DNA from: Desulfosporosinus acidiphilus SJ4
Lineage (GTDB): Bacteria; Bacillota; Desulfitobacteriia; Desulfitobacteriales; Desulfitobacteriaceae
Reading direction: 5' to 3'
DNA: 64,000 nucleotides
Assembly: GCF_000255115.2 (NCBI RefSeq)
Contig: NC_018068.1
Location: forward strand, 2,637,977-2,701,976
Numbering within the stretch: position 1 is the stretch's first letter; every line of letters starts with the position of its first letter. A program made the translations under genes and the position numbers. Shown piece by piece: positions 25,480 to 62,701 of this stretch. The notes beneath the pieces were generated by a model, which ran no database searches, had not been told where the DNA came from, and saw nothing but the letters and a program-made list of their open reading frames with translations.

Positions 25480-25790
25480 AATTTTTCAACGATTCCTTAA
25501 ACCTTTTACGATTCCGGTACAAAAACAGAAAAAGCGCCGCCTTAAACAATACTCAATCTACCCTAAAACGCCGAAAAGCCCAGCACTGCTGGACTTTTTA
25601 TGTTCATGAATTGTATCAATTATTGAGTACTTAGTTGAGATGATGAGACTAAAAACCAGATTCTTTGATACAATTTAACGATACAACTCCCGCTTGAGGA
25701 TCAAAGGGGTGCAATTGCTCAAAAGGGGGTGCATTTTTCTGTGGGAGTGCACAGTACCTAAACGCGGGCTCACTTTAATATTCTCCTTAA
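25480..25790 (+). repeat. family B repeat, copy 1
   Basis: Core elements: ACGCCGAAAAGCCCAGCA, GCTGGACTTTTTATG hairpin, ATTGTATCAATTATTGAGTA, TTTGATACAATTTAACGAT, then two GGGGTGCA-type motifs. It shares most of its length with copies at 32884 and 36630, and its left half with the sequence next to the tmRNA at 60828. Confidence 0.8.
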
Positions 25791-32883: not shown

Positions 32884-33180
32884 GATTCCATAAACCGTTT
32901 AACGATGACTATACTTTTTAACGAAAGGTAGGAATCGTTAAAAAGTATAGTGCATCATTTAACGATTTGGGTTCAAAAACAGAGAAAGCACTGCCCTAAA
33001 ATGCTGAAAAGCCCAGCATTGCTGGACTTTCTATGTTTAATAATTGTATCAATTATTGAGTACTTATTTGAGATGATTAGGCTAAAAAACACATACTTTG
33101 ATACAATTTAACGATTCATCTTTCGATTAATAATCCAAGGGGTGCATTTGCTTAATGGGGGTGCGGCAACTTCTTGGTAC
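32884..33180 (+). repeat. family B repeat, copy 2
   Basis: Carries the AAAAGCCCAGCATTGCTGG hairpin, TTGTATCAATTATTGAGTAC, TTTGATACAATTTAACGATT and two GGGTGC motifs. Followed at 33220-33330 by a scrap of the same recombinase gene as at 27786. The remaining 33331-33492 shows no gene. Confidence 0.8.
32909..32950. repeat. perfect 16-bp inverted repeat within family B copy 2
   Basis: CTATACTTTTTAACGA (32909-32924) and its exact complement (32935-32950) flank a 10-base loop. TTTAACGA recurs through the family B copies, so this may be a recombination or protein-binding site. Confidence 0.65.
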
Positions 33181-36629: not shown

Positions 36630-36910
36630 CCTTACACCTTTTAACGAAAGGTAGGTTTCACCCTTCAGGGGGGTGCATCTTTTAACGATTCGGATGCAAA
36701 AAACAAAGAAAGCACCGCCTTAAACGATGTTTTCTCTGCCCTAAATAGCCGAAAGGCCCAGCATTGCTGGACTTTCTATGTTCATTAATTGTATCAATTA
36801 TTGAGTACTTATTTGAGATAATGAGGCTAAAAGACATATTCTTTGATACAATTTAACGATCCACCTTCGCTTGATGCTCAAGGGGGGCTTTTGTGCTTTT
36901 GGGGGTGCAA
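36630..36910 (+). repeat. family B repeat, copy 3
   Basis: TTTTAACGAAAGGTAGG, the CCCAGCATTGCTGG hairpin, ATTGTATCAA (36788-36797) pairing with TTGATACAAT (36843-36852), and GGGGTGCA at the end. 36461-36629 and 36911-37107 show no gene. Confidence 0.8.
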
Positions 36911-37107: not shown

Positions 37108-37764
37108 TTAAATCCACTCTTCTGGATAATTCATATTTTCTTGGAATTTCTTGAGGAACAAACCAACATGATATCCATCTGCTACAGCGTGATGTACCGT
37201 GATGGATAATGGCATCATTTTTTTATTGGCTTTATCAAAGAATTTCCCTGCTTGTAATACAGGGGAAAAATTACTTTCGTTACCATAGGAAATAGGCGTG
37301 TAATTTGTAAACTGTATCCATGGCAACATACCTATCATGCAATTATTATCGGGCATTACATCTGGTTTTGCTATAATCTCATGATTGCCAGCATATTGCT
37401 TTTGGTCTTCGATGTAATTCCGATAAAAAGTTTCAAAATCCGAGTTGTATTCAGTCCACATGCTAGATATGGTATTATCGTCTTCATGAAAGCAAGCATA
37501 GGTCGGATGCAAAACCTCATAATATCCCAATTGACCATCTTTTTCTGCAATTCGAAATTCTTGTTGTTCTGCTATTAGCCTTGAAACTAAATACAGGTAA
37601 GCAGGAAAGAACTTTTTATTAGCTCTTTTTACCATATTATAAGTGCTTGTAATATCTACTTCCACGCTGAGGCTATACCTTGTGGGAAGCATCTTTGTGA
37701 AATAATAAAAGTATTGTTTTCTATCCCAAGTGTTAAGATCAATTGGATGAAATTCAGTATTCAT
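37108..37764 (-). CDS. chloramphenicol acetyltransferase-like protein
   Basis: 218 residues from the ATG at 37764 (AAGGAAAGGAA upstream), the usual CAT length. Near the C-terminus SITVHHAVADGYHVGLFL supplies the catalytic His and Asp-Gly of the CAT fold (HHAVxDG). RKQYFYYFTKMLPTRYSLSV at the N-terminus and PISYGNESNFSPVLQAGKF hold substrate- and CoA-site residues. It would acetylate chloramphenicol or a related alcohol in the cytoplasm; resistance is not proven. Overlaps the DUF2087 gene. Confidence 0.85.
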   Translation of the reverse strand: MNTEFHPIDLNTWDRKQYFYYFTKMLPTRYSLSVEVDITSTYNMVKRANKKFFPAYLYLVSRLIAEQQEFRIAEKDGQLGYYEVLHPTYACFHEDDNTISSMWTEYNSDFETFYRNYIEDQKQYAGNHEIIAKPDVMPDNNCMIGMLPWIQFTNYTPISYGNESNFSPVLQAGKFFDKANKKMMPLSITVHHAVADGYHVGLFLKKFQENMNYPEEWI

Positions 37765-38056
37765 CGTTAACTTTCCTTTCCTTTGTGTTGATTGGCACTT
37801 TCCAGTAGATGGAATCGTCTCGCTCACGGCATAGAAGACCGTTATCAACGAGTTCTCGTCTCAGTAGAAAGTAGTCCTCAAAAGTATGCCACTTGTTGCA
37901 GATATCATTCACATCTCGTTCCGTATAACTACAGTCAATCTCAAATTTTTCAGCCAAATACTCCAGCAATGCATATCTCACCTTCTGTTTTTGTGGTAAT
38001 TGCGTTATTCTACCTGAATCATCAAGGAATCGTTTAATATTAAGCTTTTGTTCCAT
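37754..38056 (-). CDS. DUF2087 domain protein
   Basis: 100 residues. Pattern KRFLDDSGRITQLPQKQKVR, LEYLAEKFEIDCSYTERDVN, FEDYFLLRRELVDNGLLCR and DDSIYW is DUF2087, usually found attached to regulators or beside acetyltransferases. Probably nucleic-acid binding (winged-helix-like), but the role is unproven. Its end overlaps the CAT-like start by 11 bp, so the two are coupled. Confidence 0.85.
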   Translation of the reverse strand: MEQKLNIKRFLDDSGRITQLPQKQKVRYALLEYLAEKFEIDCSYTERDVNDICNKWHTFEDYFLLRRELVDNGLLCRERDDSIYWKVPINTKERKVNDEY

Positions 38057-56060: not shown

Positions 56061-56234
56061 CCTTTTTAATGTAAAGCTTTACATTAAAAAGGTTATGGAA
56101 AGTGTGAGATAATGTAAAGTAAGGTGGTTAAATACTCAATTACACTGAGAATTTTGTCGCTTTACTTTACATTATTGTCCTCTATAGTTGATTCAAGCGG
56201 TGTGCTTAAATCAATTAAGGGGGTATTAGCTTTA

Positions 56235-57485
56235 ATGAAGGAAAATCAAATGACACTTGAGATATTGACGGGTGAAGTCGTCAACTATCTCCAAAAACTT
56301 GCCTATTCCGATTCGAGAATTAGTCAATATCGTTCCGCATGGCAAAAAGTAGCCGTATTTATGAGAGACAATGATCTACAATACTATAATGCGTCTGTTG
56401 GTGAGGCATTCATTTACCACCTAATTGGAACCAGAGGCTATGATAATCTTGACCGTTGGGAGAAAACTATTATCCAATGCGCCAACGTACTGACAGAATT
56501 CCTAGAGACTAGAACTGTGAAATTCAGAAGGAACCAGAAATTCCGGGAACTGCTTGGATCTATCGGTAAGACTATGTTATCTTACATTGATTACAAAAAA
56601 TCTTATGGAATTTCACGAGAAACGGTTGAAGAGTACAAGAGCAATTTGCGGCGTTTGCTCAATTATCTTAATGATCATGGAATTACAGAGCTAAATTCAA
56701 TAAATCAGTTGTTTCTTCTGAATTATGCTAATCAGATGGGCTTCTTTACTCCCTATACCAGACATAGGAACCTATCAATCGTTAAAGGGTATCTCCGATA
56801 TATTTATGATCAGGGACTAGCCGAAATAGATTGTTCCCGGTTGCTCCCAAAGGATAAATATGTTAAGCAGCCAAAACTTCCTTCGACTTATTCCCAAAAA
56901 GAAGTCAAAGCTTTATTAGCTGCTATTGATAGGAGTAGTCCAAAGGGAAAACGGGATTATGCAATGGTATTAATTACAGCACGTTTGGGACTCAGAGCCT
57001 CCGACGTTTGTAATCTTACCTTTGAAAACATCCTATGGGAAAAGAATCTTATTGTCCTGTACCAACAAAAAACCAAATCCGGAATAGAACTTCCACTGCT
57101 AACCGAAATCGGTGAAGCCATCATCGACTATTTAAAATACGGAAGACCTAGTTCAAATGTACCCTTCATATTCCTTCATGTAACTCCCCCGTATGACAGG
57201 CTCAACCGATCAACCCTCCATAGCATCGTGTGCTTTTATCTAAGAAGGGCAGATATTCATTACGAAAAGGAACGTAAACACGGTCCCCATGCACTCCGTC
57301 ACAGCCTAGCCGGAGTCCTGCTTGAGAAAAAGACACCTTTGCCTGTCATTTCCGAAGTACTGGGGCATAAGAACACAGAAAGTACCCGGATCTATCTTAG
57401 AATTGATATGAACTCTCTGCGCCAGTGTGCCTTGGAAGTGCCGCCTGTCTCACGCTCTTTTTATGAAAGAGGTTCGGGCAGATGA
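56235..57485 (+). CDS. RIT tyrosine recombinase A
   Basis: 416 residues from the ATG at 56235 (AAGGGGGT upstream; the frame opens at 56124 within the terminal repeat). N-terminal SAM-like DNA-binding part, then the catalytic residues: Arg in TARLGLRASDVCNLT, Lys in QQKTKSGIELPL, HALRHSLAG (HxxR), GHKNTESTRIYLRID (His and Tyr). The C-terminus overlaps recombinase B by 4 bp. Confidence 0.9.
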   Translation: MKENQMTLEILTGEVVNYLQKLAYSDSRISQYRSAWQKVAVFMRDNDLQYYNASVGEAFIYHLIGTRGYDNLDRWEKTIIQCANVLTEFLETRTVKFRRNQKFRELLGSIGKTMLSYIDYKKSYGISRETVEEYKSNLRRLLNYLNDHGITELNSINQLFLLNYANQMGFFTPYTRHRNLSIVKGYLRYIYDQGLAEIDCSRLLPKDKYVKQPKLPSTYSQKEVKALLAAIDRSSPKGKRDYAMVLITARLGLRASDVCNLTFENILWEKNLIVLYQQKTKSGIELPLLTEIGEAIIDYLKYGRPSSNVPFIFLHVTPPYDRLNRSTLHSIVCFYLRRADIHYEKERKHGPHALRHSLAGVLLEKKTPLPVISEVLGHKNTESTRIYLRIDMNSLRQCALEVPPVSRSFYERGSGR

Positions 57486-58453
57486 GCAGATACAAGGGCA
57501 TATATGCTATTTTGATTAAGCAATACATCGATCTCAAAAGAAACTTGGGCTATAAGTTTAAAGATGCTGAAAGCACCTATTACATCTTTGATCAGTTTAC
57601 CATCAGAAACGGGGAGACCGAGATTGGCATTACTAAGGAGCTGGCCGATAAGTGGGCAGTGAAACGCCCGAATGAGTCGGATAGTACCTGTTACAAAAGA
57701 GTTATGTATCTGATACAGTTTTCCTCTTTCCTCAATGATTCAGGGTATCCTTCATATATTCCTCGGCTACCTAAGGCTTACAAAAGCACTTTTACACCAT
57801 ACATTTTCTCCAAAGAGGAGATGAGGTCCGTCTTTGCAGCCAGTGAACGATTAAAATTGGATAACTTTATGGATTCGGCAGTCAATGTAATTCCTGCACT
57901 TTTACGCATGTTATACGGTACGGGAATTCGCATCGGTGAAGCGGTATCTCTAAAAGTGAAAGACGTAAACCTAACTGAACAATACCTAATTATCCGGAAA
58001 AGCAAAAATGGCAAGGATCGGATGATTCCTTTCTCTGATTCACTTGCTAACGTTTGCAGGCAATACAGAGATTCCTTACAAGTCGTACAGGGGCCTGAAG
58101 ATTACTTTTTTGTGAAACGTAATGGGCGCAGATGTAATCCGAAAGCTATCTATGAATGGTTTAGGAAAGTCCTCTGGGAAGCAGGTATTCCTCATGGCGG
58201 GAAAGGTCAGGGGCCACGCTTGCACGATATCCGCCACGTTTTTAGCGTACATTCGCTGGCGGCAATGGCAAAGGCTGGTTTAGACCTTTATTACTCTCTT
58301 CCAATACTCTCTGAATATCTAGGACACCAGTCCCTGGAGGCAACCGAAAAATATGTTAGGCTGACATCTGAGATGTATCCTGAGATAATTTCCAATGTTA
58401 ACAATATCTGTGCTTATGCTTTTCCTGAGGTAGACTGCCATGAAACCAACTGA
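57482..58453 (+). CDS. RIT tyrosine recombinase B
   Basis: 323 residues. Catalytic Arg in YGTGIRIGEAVSLKVKDVNL, Lys in SKNGKDRMIPFS, LHDIRHVFSVHSL (HxxR), LGHQSLEATEKYVRLT (His, Tyr). Its start ATGA overlaps A's stop and its end overlaps C by 14 bp, the coupled arrangement typical of RIT elements. Confidence 0.9.
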   Translation: MSRYKGIYAILIKQYIDLKRNLGYKFKDAESTYYIFDQFTIRNGETEIGITKELADKWAVKRPNESDSTCYKRVMYLIQFSSFLNDSGYPSYIPRLPKAYKSTFTPYIFSKEEMRSVFAASERLKLDNFMDSAVNVIPALLRMLYGTGIRIGEAVSLKVKDVNLTEQYLIIRKSKNGKDRMIPFSDSLANVCRQYRDSLQVVQGPEDYFFVKRNGRRCNPKAIYEWFRKVLWEAGIPHGGKGQGPRLHDIRHVFSVHSLAAMAKAGLDLYYSLPILSEYLGHQSLEATEKYVRLTSEMYPEIISNVNNICAYAFPEVDCHETN

Positions 58454-59459
58454 TTTCTCGAAGAGATTGACCGATTTCCTGATCTGTTATCTACCCGGTG
58501 AAAAAGGTGTTAGTAAAAATACCATTGCATCCTATAAAGATACGTTTATTCTCTTTCTAACATTTATGAAAGATGAGAAAGGAATTCCAGCCAACAAGCT
58601 GTTACTCAAACAATTAACTAAAGAAAATATTGTGGATTTTCTGGACTGGATTGAGGAATCCCGGCATTGTTGTACAGCAACACGAAATGTACGCCTTGCT
58701 GCCCTGCATTCTTTTTTTCATTACCTACAATACCAGTGCCCAGAAAACCTGCTGGAATGGCAGAGAATACTCTCTATTCCGGTAAAAAGGACAGAAAAGA
58801 CATCTATTAATTATCTTTCATTGGAAGGTATCCGGTTACTTCTTGAAGAACCGGATCGTTTAACCCGTAATGGGCGAAGAGACCTTGCATTATTGTCACT
58901 TATGTATGACAGTGGCGCACGTGTCCAGGAAATCATAGATTTGACACCTTCTATGGTGCGCTTTGATGTACCTTGTACAATAAAATTGATTGGAAAAGGT
59001 AATAAGGCTAGGATCGTTCCGCTTCTTGATGCACAGATGAAATTTCTCAAAATGTATATGGCAGAGCAAAAGCTTCTGGAACCATATGCGAATATGTACC
59101 CATTATTTAGCAACAGCCGGAAGGAAAAGCTCACTCGTGCCGGAGTAAATTACATACTAGCCAAATATGCGATGCAGGCCAGGACCAAAAATCCATCCAT
59201 GATACCAGAAAAGTTAAGTTGCCACACTTTAAGGCACTCCAAGGCCATGCATTTGCTTCAGTCGGGTGTCAATCTGGTATATATACGTGATATTCTTGGA
59301 CACACATCTATCCAGGTCACAGAGGTTTATGCTAGAACAGATTCCCGTCAAAAGCGCGCAGCAATTGAAAAAGCTTATACGGATGTAACACCAGAAGCAA
59401 CACCGATATGGTTAGCCAATGACGATTTATTAGAATGGCTAAAGTCTTTTTCTAAATAA
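58440..59459 (+). CDS. RIT tyrosine recombinase C
   Basis: 339 residues. N-terminal core-binding domain (SKNTIASYKDTFILFLTFMK), then Arg in YDSGARVQEIIDLTPSMV, Lys in IGKGNKARIVPLL, CHTLRHSKAMHLL (HxxR), LGHTSIQVTEVYARTD (His, Tyr). All catalytic residues present, so the trio looks functional. Confidence 0.9.
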   Translation: MKPTDFSKRLTDFLICYLPGEKGVSKNTIASYKDTFILFLTFMKDEKGIPANKLLLKQLTKENIVDFLDWIEESRHCCTATRNVRLAALHSFFHYLQYQCPENLLEWQRILSIPVKRTEKTSINYLSLEGIRLLLEEPDRLTRNGRRDLALLSLMYDSGARVQEIIDLTPSMVRFDVPCTIKLIGKGNKARIVPLLDAQMKFLKMYMAEQKLLEPYANMYPLFSNSRKEKLTRAGVNYILAKYAMQARTKNPSMIPEKLSCHTLRHSKAMHLLQSGVNLVYIRDILGHTSIQVTEVYARTDSRQKRAAIEKAYTDVTPEATPIWLANDDLLEWLKSFSK

Positions 59460-60286: not shown

Positions 60287-60448
60287 TCTCCTTTCCTCCT
60301 TGTATCCTCTCTTCAACAGATACAAGGATATAGGCTATGGTTTATGCCTGCAATGGATTTTGCAATACTATGGAATTTCCAATTGCAACACTCTGGAATT
60401 TTAACTTGCAACTTTCGGTACTTTTATCTTACAACAAACACCAGTAAC

Positions 60449-60743
60449 GTAACTGGCAAGTTGATTTAATACCATATTTCCTACATATATCCATGTAGGA
60501 ACCACCGCCCACCAAATAATCTTTGACAGCTGAAGTTCTAAGTTCCACAGAATAGGCAGTATTCTTAGATGTATTAATTAGTCCATTTGGACCTAGTGAA
60601 TGGTATGTTTGAAGCCATTGCTGGGCGGATTTAAAATCAACACCTAGAAGACTTGCTAAATGAGATAGTGTATCTTCTCCACGAAGATACTTTTCAATTG
60701 CCGCTATTTTTTCTGACCCTGATACTCTTGATCTATGGGACAA
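60449..60743 (-). pseudogene. IS3 orfA, proximal part
   Basis: RVSGSEKIAAIEKYLRGEDT, LSHLASLLGVDFKSAQQWLQ (first helix-turn-helix) and SYMDICRKYGIKSTCQLRYW, where the IS21 insertion breaks it. GAGGAGC precedes the ATG at 60743. Confidence 0.85.
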
Positions 60744-60827
60744 AAAAAGCTCCTCCTTATGATAACAGTTTTATTATTTTAACTGTCTACCATAAAGGGA
60801 GCATATCACAAAGTGATGCTTAAATTA

Positions 60828-60901
60828 CCCATAAACGCCGAAAAGCCCAGCATTGCTGGACTTTTTATGTTATTAATTGTATCAATTATTGAGTACTTAT
60901 T
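60828..60901 (-). terminator. terminator region of the tmRNA gene (family B copy 4)
   Basis: On the minus strand the tmRNA end is followed by AAATAAGTACTCAATAATTG and AAAGTCCAGC-AAT-GCTGGGCTTTT, a hairpin with a T tract. The same sequence, in the same orientation, forms the left half of family B copies 1-3, which diverge just where the tmRNA 3' end would start. Confidence 0.75.
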
Positions 60902-61252
60902 TGGCGGAGACGAGGGGATTTGCGCCCCTGTATCGAAGAGCTGCCACAAAAGCGTCTACGCGTGTGTCCTTTAATTTAACCTTCACCGTTAATGACTCCT
61001 AAAGGCAAGGATTCATTTCAGACTAGCTCGATCATCTTAGCTAATGTCTTCGAGCATTGAATTTGAGCGTCCTACTAAATTGACACCCTGGCCCTTCATC
61101 GTAGGTCTTGAAAGCAGGATGCTAACAGCACTTAGGCAGCTAGGGCGTAATTATTTTCGTTAACTATTTTGGTCCACCGTTTAACGAGACCAGGTGGAAT
61201 CTCGACGCGCAACTTTTGTCACTGCTTCCCCGAGCGAGTCCAAAACGCCCCC
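60902..61252 (-). ncRNA. ssrA: tmRNA (ssrA), possibly degenerate copy
   Basis: The minus strand begins GGGGGCGTTTTGG and ends CCCCTCGTCTCCGCCA, the tmRNA acceptor stem. In between lie GTTGCGCGTCGAGATTCC, the tag frame AACGAAAATAATTACGCC...GCTGCCTAA (NENNYALAA), pseudoknot-type hairpins and GGACACACGCGTAGACGC. Length 351. Oddities against the usual sequence: the D-loop TTCGAC reads CTCGCTC, the T-loop TTCAAAT reads CGCAAAT, the end is GCCA not ACCA, and AACGAA follows ATAGTT directly, so the GCA resume codon seems deleted. Either a diverged functional tmRNA or a decayed copy. Confidence 0.8.
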
Positions 61253-61433
61253 ATATGAAATGTTACTTGCATAATACCCTTTCAACTTTTCTTCCATAAC
61301 CAACCTTCCGAGGCTTAAGATATAGCGATTAGTGGTAGTTAAAAATTGCCAATGTGCCTGGATAAATTGTTGTGAAATGATATCAGTGTTTCCCGTTTTT
61401 ACTGTTCCAGCCCATTCTCTTGTCAAAAGTTAT

Positions 61434-62549
61434 TTAGGGCTGGGCCGTGAATTCCTCGTGAACTTTTTTAAGTAAAATGGGTATATTTAGACCCTGTGGG
61501 CATTGTTCCATACAAAGTTCGCAAGATATACATTGATCGGCACCGGAACCTGAAGGCAACAAACTAATACGATAGACCCCTTTGTCTACCCAGTGGGATT
61601 TCATAAGCTGGTTACTATTATAGAGACGGAATATTTCAGGAATACTGACACCTTGGGGGCAGGGCATACAATATCTGCAGCCTGTACAGCCAATGCTATT
61701 TTTCGACTCAAAAATTCCCCTTATCTTTTTAATGAGATTTTGATCCTCTTCTGTCATTACATTCGGTGCGGAATCGTTAAAGATTCTCAAATTATCTTTT
61801 AACTGTTCCAAAGTATTTGTTCCACTCAAAATGACCGATACTTCAGGCATATTATAGAGCCAGCGGAAACACCACTCAACAAGTGAACGTTTTTCCGGAT
61901 AATGACTAATTAAATCGTATACTTCCTCGGGGACATTATTAAGCATGAATCCTCCTCTTAACGGCTCCATGATGACCATGGCGACTCCTTTATCCGCCGC
62001 ATATTTTAAGCCTTCGACCCCTGCCTGTAAAGTTTCATCCAAAATATTTAATTGGATTTGCGCCATCTCCCAGTCAAAAGTATCTACGATTTCTTTAAAT
62101 GCCGATAAAGTTCCATGAAAGGAAAAAGCCTTATGCCTTATTTTCCCTTTTTGAACCATCTTGTCTAGGAAACTAAAGCCGTCAAATTTTCTAACCTTCT
62201 CCCAATTATCATGACTTAAGTTATGCAGCAGATAAACATCAATGTATTCTGTTCCAAGACGTTTTAGTTCTTCATCCAAATATTTTTCAAAATCCTCATG
62301 CTTACTTATGTGCCAGATAGGGTTTTTCGTTGCTATGAAAGTTTTATTTCTGTAACCATCTTTGAGAGCTTTTCCAGTTATTATTTCGCTATCCTTATAC
62401 ATGTAAGCGGTATCAATGTAGTTCACCCCATGATCTAGTGCATACCTAACCATTTCAATTGCATCTTTCTCGCTCGATGGGAATCGCATACAACCCAGCC
62501 CAAACCTAGAAACGTTAAGTCCCGTTTTTCCAAATTGCGTATACTGCAT
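61434..62549 (-). CDS. aldo/keto reductase with C-terminal 4Fe-4S domain
   Basis: 371 residues from the ATG at 62549 (GGAGTG upstream). TIM-barrel AKR start YTQFGKTGLNVSRFGLGCMR, catalytic Tyr in NYIDTAYMYKDSE, Lys in TFIATKNPIW, His in VYLLHNLS. The C-terminal part has two Cys clusters, CTGCRYCMPCPQG and CISCELCMEQCPQG, for Fe-S clusters. Members of this anaerobe-typical group are probably ferredoxin-linked oxidoreductases; the substrate is unknown. Confidence 0.9.
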   Translation of the reverse strand: MQYTQFGKTGLNVSRFGLGCMRFPSSEKDAIEMVRYALDHGVNYIDTAYMYKDSEIITGKALKDGYRNKTFIATKNPIWHISKHEDFEKYLDEELKRLGTEYIDVYLLHNLSHDNWEKVRKFDGFSFLDKMVQKGKIRHKAFSFHGTLSAFKEIVDTFDWEMAQIQLNILDETLQAGVEGLKYAADKGVAMVIMEPLRGGFMLNNVPEEVYDLISHYPEKRSLVEWCFRWLYNMPEVSVILSGTNTLEQLKDNLRIFNDSAPNVMTEEDQNLIKKIRGIFESKNSIGCTGCRYCMPCPQGVSIPEIFRLYNSNQLMKSHWVDKGVYRISLLPSGSGADQCISCELCMEQCPQGLNIPILLKKVHEEFTAQP

Positions 62550-62701
62550 TTGACACACTCCATTTCCAATATTGTCTTTCAAATGAAGGTAATATCTGCG
62601 AAAACATGCCCAGAATATACACTACTAACCTACTACTGGCCTTTTGTTACTTTCCTTAAAGCGAGACCTTTGGCAATCACCGATTGCACAACAGAAGAAC
62701 A

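Follow-up and report, generated by a model that had tools for sequence, protein, structure and literature searches.

The tmRNA gene at positions 60902-61252 (minus strand) of the window, that is, the whole stretch of 64,000 nucleotides of Desulfosporosinus acidiphilus SJ4 DNA analysed here, is most likely (at a probability of about 0.7) a second ssrA gene, an old Desulfosporosinus paralogue that seems to be little expressed and in early decay, with trans-translation probably carried out by another ssrA gene that is linked to smpB. Hereafter, the smpB-linked gene is denoted ssrA1, and the window gene together with its paralogue class is denoted ssrA2.

Two tmRNA genes in the host genome

The window gene is a complete one-piece tmRNA gene of 351 nt that matches the full covariance model of the family (RF00023, model positions 1-374) with 116 bits (E 2.6e-46), well over the curated cut-off of 47. 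The covariance search thus bears out the preliminary description of this DNA, which, from the letters alone, had called the gene complete from acceptor stem to acceptor stem. With the standard one-piece tmRNA, it shares the full model, the acceptor stem with the G3-U70 pair, the T arm, helix 2, the pseudoknots and a reading frame ending in ALAA and a stop codon, but differs from it in the D-loop (CUCGCU), the T-loop (CGCAAAU), the AAC resume codon, the nine-codon tag and the discriminator base G73. The acceptor stem consists of 7 bp and is followed by CCA; its 3' strand, CGUCUCC, together with G73, occupies 60905-60912 (minus strand), where the third pair, G3-U70, is kept and the fifth pair is G-U. 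Single-sequence folding of the gene was uninformative (z -0.51), and ARAGORN called no tmRNA gene in the window and none on the host ssrA1 either.

Two matches to RF00023 over the cut-off were found in the host genome. The other match, ssrA1 (C3:4770595-4770945), scores above the window copy, at 135.3 bits, and the only smpB gene found in this genome (a single PF01668 match, 217.3 bits, C3:4771135-4771560) lies just upstream of it on the same strand. Thus, the search for another ssrA and for smpB that the preliminary description had proposed yielded both, adjoining each other on C3, which refutes its suggestion that the window gene could be the sole ssrA and trans-translation in this organism unusual. 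The two genes are 90.3% identical over the length of the window copy (32 substitutions, 2 single-base gaps). They have the same resume codon and near-identical loops, but the window copy has no smpB nearby, has unrelated upstream sequence, carries the changes U54C and A12G, and encodes the tag NENNYALAA instead of the NEDNFALAA of ssrA1 (nine codons each). An assembly error, which the preliminary description had named as a possible source of the odd letters, or a sequencing error is a negligible explanation of the second copy: the copies have diverged, their flanks are unrelated, and two copies are present also in the single-contig genomes G006 and G010.

Resume codon, loops and 3' end follow lineage norms

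For comparison, we assembled a genus set of 36 copies, of which 35 are full and one contains internal Ns; they come from 28 of the 29 Desulfosporosinus genomes. In this set, “main or sole” denotes the copy linked to smpB or, where a genome yielded just one copy, that copy. The preliminary description had observed that ATAGTT runs straight into AACGAA, which is correct, and took the resume codon to be apparently missing, which is not. The only support for a sole, aberrant tmRNA without a resume codon comes from the Rfam alignment, where the window copy has a 3-nt gap at GCA, accompanying the nine-codon tag. The alignment of the 36 genus copies is gap-free at this site, with a UAAUU-GCA-AAC type and a UAGUU-AAC type, and AAC of the window copy occupies the place of GCA in its relatives, so that a missing resume codon was rejected. 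AAC serves as the resume codon of 21 of the 28 main or sole genes and of all 8 ssrA2 copies (GCA in the other 7 of the 28), and the nine-codon tag occurs with both types; given, furthermore, the second ssrA with its smpB, a lone tmRNA without a resume codon is almost certainly not what the window encodes. In the 26 other loci from the host order, UAGUUAAC was found in 4 and UAACUGAC in 5. According to the available text of two papers (PMC4236655, PMC8363625), the resume codon directly follows the UAG or UAA motif read by SmpB, in agreement with AAC (61161-61159) as the resume codon of the window gene. From there, the tag frame AAC GAA AAT AAT TAC GCC CTA GCT GCC TAA (61132-61161, minus strand) runs in frame to its stop and encodes NENNYALAA.

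The altered tRNA-like loops have a similar explanation. In the window gene, the D-loop reads CTCGCT in place of TTCGAC (segment GGACUCGCU, RNA positions 12-20, 61233-61241, minus strand), and the T-loop reads CGCAAAT in place of TTCGATT (T arm AGGGG-CGCAAAU-CCCCU, 60913-60929, minus strand). Throughout the genus set, the D-loop reads CUCGCU or UUCGCU, and the T-loop contains UGCAA in 35 of the 36 copies; only the window copy departs from this, having CGCAA. The same altered loops are present in the 26 other loci of the order (out of 32 matched genomes), whereas another order of the same class has the canonical CGAC and UUCGACU in 8 of 8 loci. Because all 62 copies examined in the host order depart from the canonical D-loop UUCGAC and T-loop UUCGA, sole copies among them, this departure was not counted against the identity of the window gene as a tmRNA. 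Most simply, the loop change, with G to A at position 12 and U to G at T-loop position 55, would have arisen once, at the base of the host order. By analogy with tRNA structure, these two bases would touch each other. Inspected for a co-change with the altered loops, the SmpB proteins appear ordinary by eye (30 rows, representing 29 genes, one fetched twice), those of the other order lying outside the fetched stretches. ARAGORN found a tmRNA in only one of 17 loci of the host order; these misses probably stem from the altered T-loop.

The GCCA end, that is, G73, is shared by 10 of the 28 main or sole Desulfosporosinus genes, including 8 of the 20 single-copy genomes. As A at the discriminator position is a key element of alanine-tRNA recognition, according to the accessible part of one source (PMC3968760), G73 may reduce charging, but then it would do so in many of these species. 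Having been found to be common to relatives, the GCCA end and the loop changes were discarded as signs of decay, with the exception of two letters: base 12, which is G in the window copy and A in the other genus copies, and the first T-loop base (60924), which is C here and U in the other copies examined. The preliminary description thus read the letters correctly, and the anomalies that it saw in them are, apart from U54C and A12G, mostly norms of the order or the genus; its own proviso, that closely related species carrying the same sequence as their sole, functional ssrA would undo its reading, comes close to being realised for the loops and the GCCA end.

ssrA2 is a paralogue lineage within Desulfosporosinus

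Two full tmRNA genes were found in 8 of the 29 Desulfosporosinus genomes. In the other 44 genomes of the host order, there was one match to RF00023 (at E 1e-20) in 32, none in 12 and two in not a single one, and, among 9 further genomes of the host class, one match in 8 and none in 1. Six genomes of at least 90% completeness (G037, G041, G045, G060, G061 and G075) gave no match at this threshold; it is possible that their tmRNA gene is missing, split or intron-bearing. The smpB gene is present in 12 of the 12 stretches with main or sole copies that were examined, but all 8 ssrA2 stretches lack it; it is found near most, not all, sole copies, being absent near that of G024.

By their upstream regions, seven ssrA2 copies group into a single clade (support 98/96) in a tree that left out the window copy and in which G001 and G003 were marked by the program as long branches of unsure place. 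The gene bodies, in contrast, are not separated: ssrA2 copies are on average 90.5% identical to one another, those of the other group 92.9%, and members of the two groups 90.9% to each other (19 copies; the body tree included 35 copies, G019, with its internal Ns, being left out of it as well as of the pair and private-change counts below). In G012, the body of ssrA2 is 98.9% identical to that of its own ssrA1, whereas the upstream regions are only 57.3% identical. This combination of a single promoter clade with mixed bodies appears to be best explained by a single ancient duplication and later gene conversion with ssrA1.

Dead or dying relatives of the window gene suggest that ssrA2 was lost repeatedly. 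Apart from the G003 copy, discussed below, there is a copy in G021 with the first 64 bases replaced and a 3' relic in G015 that covers positions 235-350 only; the window copy seems to fit an early stage of such loss.

The shared promoter is missing from the window copy

Upstream sequences were examined for 20 of the 36 genus copies. In the 19 other than the window copy, seven ssrA2 copies among them, a TATACT box precedes the gene by about 20 bases; at this place, the window copy reads TATTAT (61271-61276). It retains the leader common to the other ssrA2 copies, GCAAGTAACATTTCA, which is followed by TATTAT (leader and TATTAT together 61253-61276, minus strand) and then by foreign sequence. BLAST comparisons agree, with the homology between the window copy and the other members of ssrA2 beginning 19 to 24 bases upstream of the gene. 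Thus, by its leader, its 3' flank and the lack of smpB in the fetched stretch, the window copy belongs to ssrA2, but its homology to the ssrA2 promoter region extends only to about -19, the sequence further upstream having been replaced; among the 20 copies, it is the only one to have lost the shared promoter. A promoter scan found no site at the window copy, but it also missed the promoter of the host ssrA1, used as a control, and is therefore not informative; in the same scan, a site was found at the expected place for the G020 copy and none for the G010 copy. A transcript could come from the TATTAT box or by readthrough from the reductase gene upstream (see below).

On the 3' side, the flank at 60815-60901 (minus strand), with the palindrome CCAGCAATGCTGG, is shared to a varying extent with the ssrA2 copies of G010, G003, G006 and G020. 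The stem of the palindrome (60847-60859) was listed as terminator-like on the plus strand only, and the same scan called no minus-strand terminator at the window copy. An interspersed repeat of about 160 bases, present in the window at 25559-25637, 32999-33070 and 36748-36815 and also at C3:4747145-4747237, has a right half that resembles the ssrA2 3' flank. This interspersed repeat contains the inverted repeat TTGTATCAA...TTGATACAA; as a query, it matches 21 of the 29 genus genomes, ssrA flanks included.

Pairing is conserved, with private changes in the window copy

Ten changes are private to the window copy: A12G, C128U, C140U, U188A, a deletion at 192, C231U, G262U, C268U, U273G and U329C. 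The last of these is U54C, at T-loop base 54, which, like A12G, is unique to the window copy within the genus; U54C was seen in none of the other 35 genus copies, none of the 26 order loci and none of the 52 countable matches of a pattern scan of named genomes that allowed this change (these sets overlap). The ssrA2 copies of G001 and G003 have 9 and 21 private changes, respectively, the other five have 1-3, and 27 main or sole copies have 0-6, these counts varying with the closeness of the sampled relatives. Within stems, the private changes of the window copy include three conversions of G-C to G-U and one broken pair.

The PK1-PK4 pseudoknots are nevertheless preserved in the window copy, with 90 of the 96 listed pairs formed (5 broken, 1 gapped) against 89-95 (1-7 broken) in the main or sole copies, the list having been drawn up on the host ssrA1, which favours ssrA1. 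Compared with the ssrA1 consensus, which here stands in for an ancestor that it is not, the 30 substitutions in the window copy break only 1 additional pair, whereas shuffled substitutions break 8.19 on average, with 0 of 2000 shuffles as low; compared with its own ssrA1, there are 3 additional broken pairs, against a shuffled mean of 9.73 (fraction 0.0010). Because the pairing is kept far better than in the shuffles and the tag frame is intact, past selection is indicated, and for the greater part of its history the window RNA evolved under constraint. The pair-shuffle test is, however, blind to recent gene death. The ssrA2 of G003, in which G3-U70 is gone and CTA stands in place of the CCA end, still has only 3 additional broken pairs compared with 11.99 after shuffling; its acceptor stem is whole when an extra U is placed in its run, which comes on top of the 21 private changes. 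Pairing is thus a poor guide to decay, given that a gene that looks dead at the 3' end retains its pairs.

These results bear on whether the window gene functions as a second tmRNA that adds a tag of its own, shares the single SmpB and owes its transcription to a new promoter or to readthrough. Pairing far above that of the shuffles, the intact tag frame and the TATACT box in the seven other ssrA2 copies are compatible with this possibility, and recent loss of the promoter by itself would leave an almost functional RNA. We nevertheless consider it unlikely, in view of the loss of the shared promoter and of U54C, which was found nowhere else in the sets examined. The same two kinds of evidence, the replaced promoter and the private changes, point to a paralogue with low expression and reduced function, as we infer for the window copy, and they lend support to the decay that the preliminary description had offered as one of two outcomes should a second copy exist.

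Genomic surroundings and the mobile-element question

The other outcome proposed there, an element-borne tmRNA, has insertion-sequence genes nearby in its favour, but no element carrying ssrA could be delimited. Just downstream of the window ssrA2 is a gene for a transposase HTH protein (60429-60743, minus strand; PF13518, PF01527), which we take to be IS3-type orfA-like. Also downstream are istB (IS21-type) and a tandem set of three tyrosine recombinase genes (56124-59459) that, we presume, resemble a recombinase-in-trio element. Upstream lies the gene for an aldo/keto reductase with a 4Fe-4S domain (61434-62582, minus strand; PF00248). This reductase has a 90% identical relative in G017; the match stops at the end of the gene, so that the ssrA2 side is not shared at that locus. 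Elsewhere in the window, a chloramphenicol acetyltransferase family protein (PF00302) is encoded at 37108-37848.

In 13-kb stretches, the ssrA2 copies are found in differing gene neighbourhoods, upstream genes being shared by G001 and G017 only. A SIR2-STALD gene adjoins a TIR gene near ssrA2 in G017 (C3, L201 711-4028), a pair that is presumably Thoeris-like. With the exception of G001 and G017, the sequence common to the ssrA2 copies is limited to about 370-720 bp; there are no common element boundaries around the copies and no element ends around the window copy. A phage or plasmid origin was discarded, there being no match in phage or plasmid collections at blastn sensitivity.

Islands do use ssrA in the host. 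An apparent island of 23.4 kb is inserted at the 3' end of ssrA1 (G000 C3:4747145-4770595), with the displaced flank, including 13 bases of the ssrA 3' end, at C3:4747145; it encodes a serine recombinase, a helicase, a PLD-type nuclease, an AAA ATPase and HNH proteins. Similar ssrA end pieces occur in other species, and genomic islands in ssrA are described as well known in the available part of a 2025 database paper (PMC11915505). Unlike the 3'-end fragments of ssrA that such islands leave behind, the window copy is full-length. In G020 (C42), a serine recombinase gene and an amidase gene lie between ssrA2 and sequence resembling a displaced flank, and ssrA2 may thus also be an integration target. 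That ssrA2 is the cargo of a mobile element moving between chromosomal sites is suggested by the differing neighbourhoods, the insertion-sequence and recombinase genes beside the window copy and the serine-recombinase islands at the 3' ends of the host ssrA1 and the G020 ssrA2. This seems quite improbable, however, because the islands observed use ssrA as a target and none carries a whole ssrA, and because common boundaries, shared sequence beyond the short segment and phage or plasmid matches are all lacking. Phage-encoded tmRNAs, of which the same database, as far as its available text goes, lists 79 (PMC11915505), likewise represent a tmRNA besides the main one of the host, but the window gene differs from these in having its paralogues within the same genus.

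Evolutionary scenario and implications

An old, decaying paralogue accommodates these observations as follows. The window ssrA2 pairs and reads as a lineage-normal tmRNA, with G3-U70, AAC after UAGUU and the NENNYALAA tag, and the class keeps its own promoter in several species. In the host genome, unrelated sequence has taken the place of this promoter from about -19, and U54C, A12G and the other private changes have accumulated. Trans-translation would then be performed by ssrA1 together with SmpB, with ssrA2 little expressed and decaying.

A broader proposal, which we put forward tentatively, as a possibility with the odds against it, is that the genus maintains a two-tmRNA system, in which ssrA2, with its own promoter lineage, another tag in some species, a single shared SmpB, gene conversion and repeated loss, would coexist with a D-loop/T-loop contact rebuilt across the order. 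In that case, the tmRNA of the order would be unable to carry pseudouridine-55, because the base at that site is G. No report of the ssrA2 paralogue or of the loop change in this order was found in the accessible literature on duplicated tmRNA genes, Desulfosporosinus tmRNA, and resume-codon and T-loop variation (including the available text of PMC4131195 and PMC1168896), although the sequences themselves are very likely included in the tmRNA database.

The window gene itself is modest, a spare gene that is probably dying; greater interest attaches to the wider pattern, in which an ancient additional ssrA has a promoter of its own and the elbow contact is rebuilt across the order. Genome annotations that rely on ARAGORN may lack ssrA in the host order. 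If ssrA2 is active, a single cell would contain two tmRNAs, with a second tag in some species.
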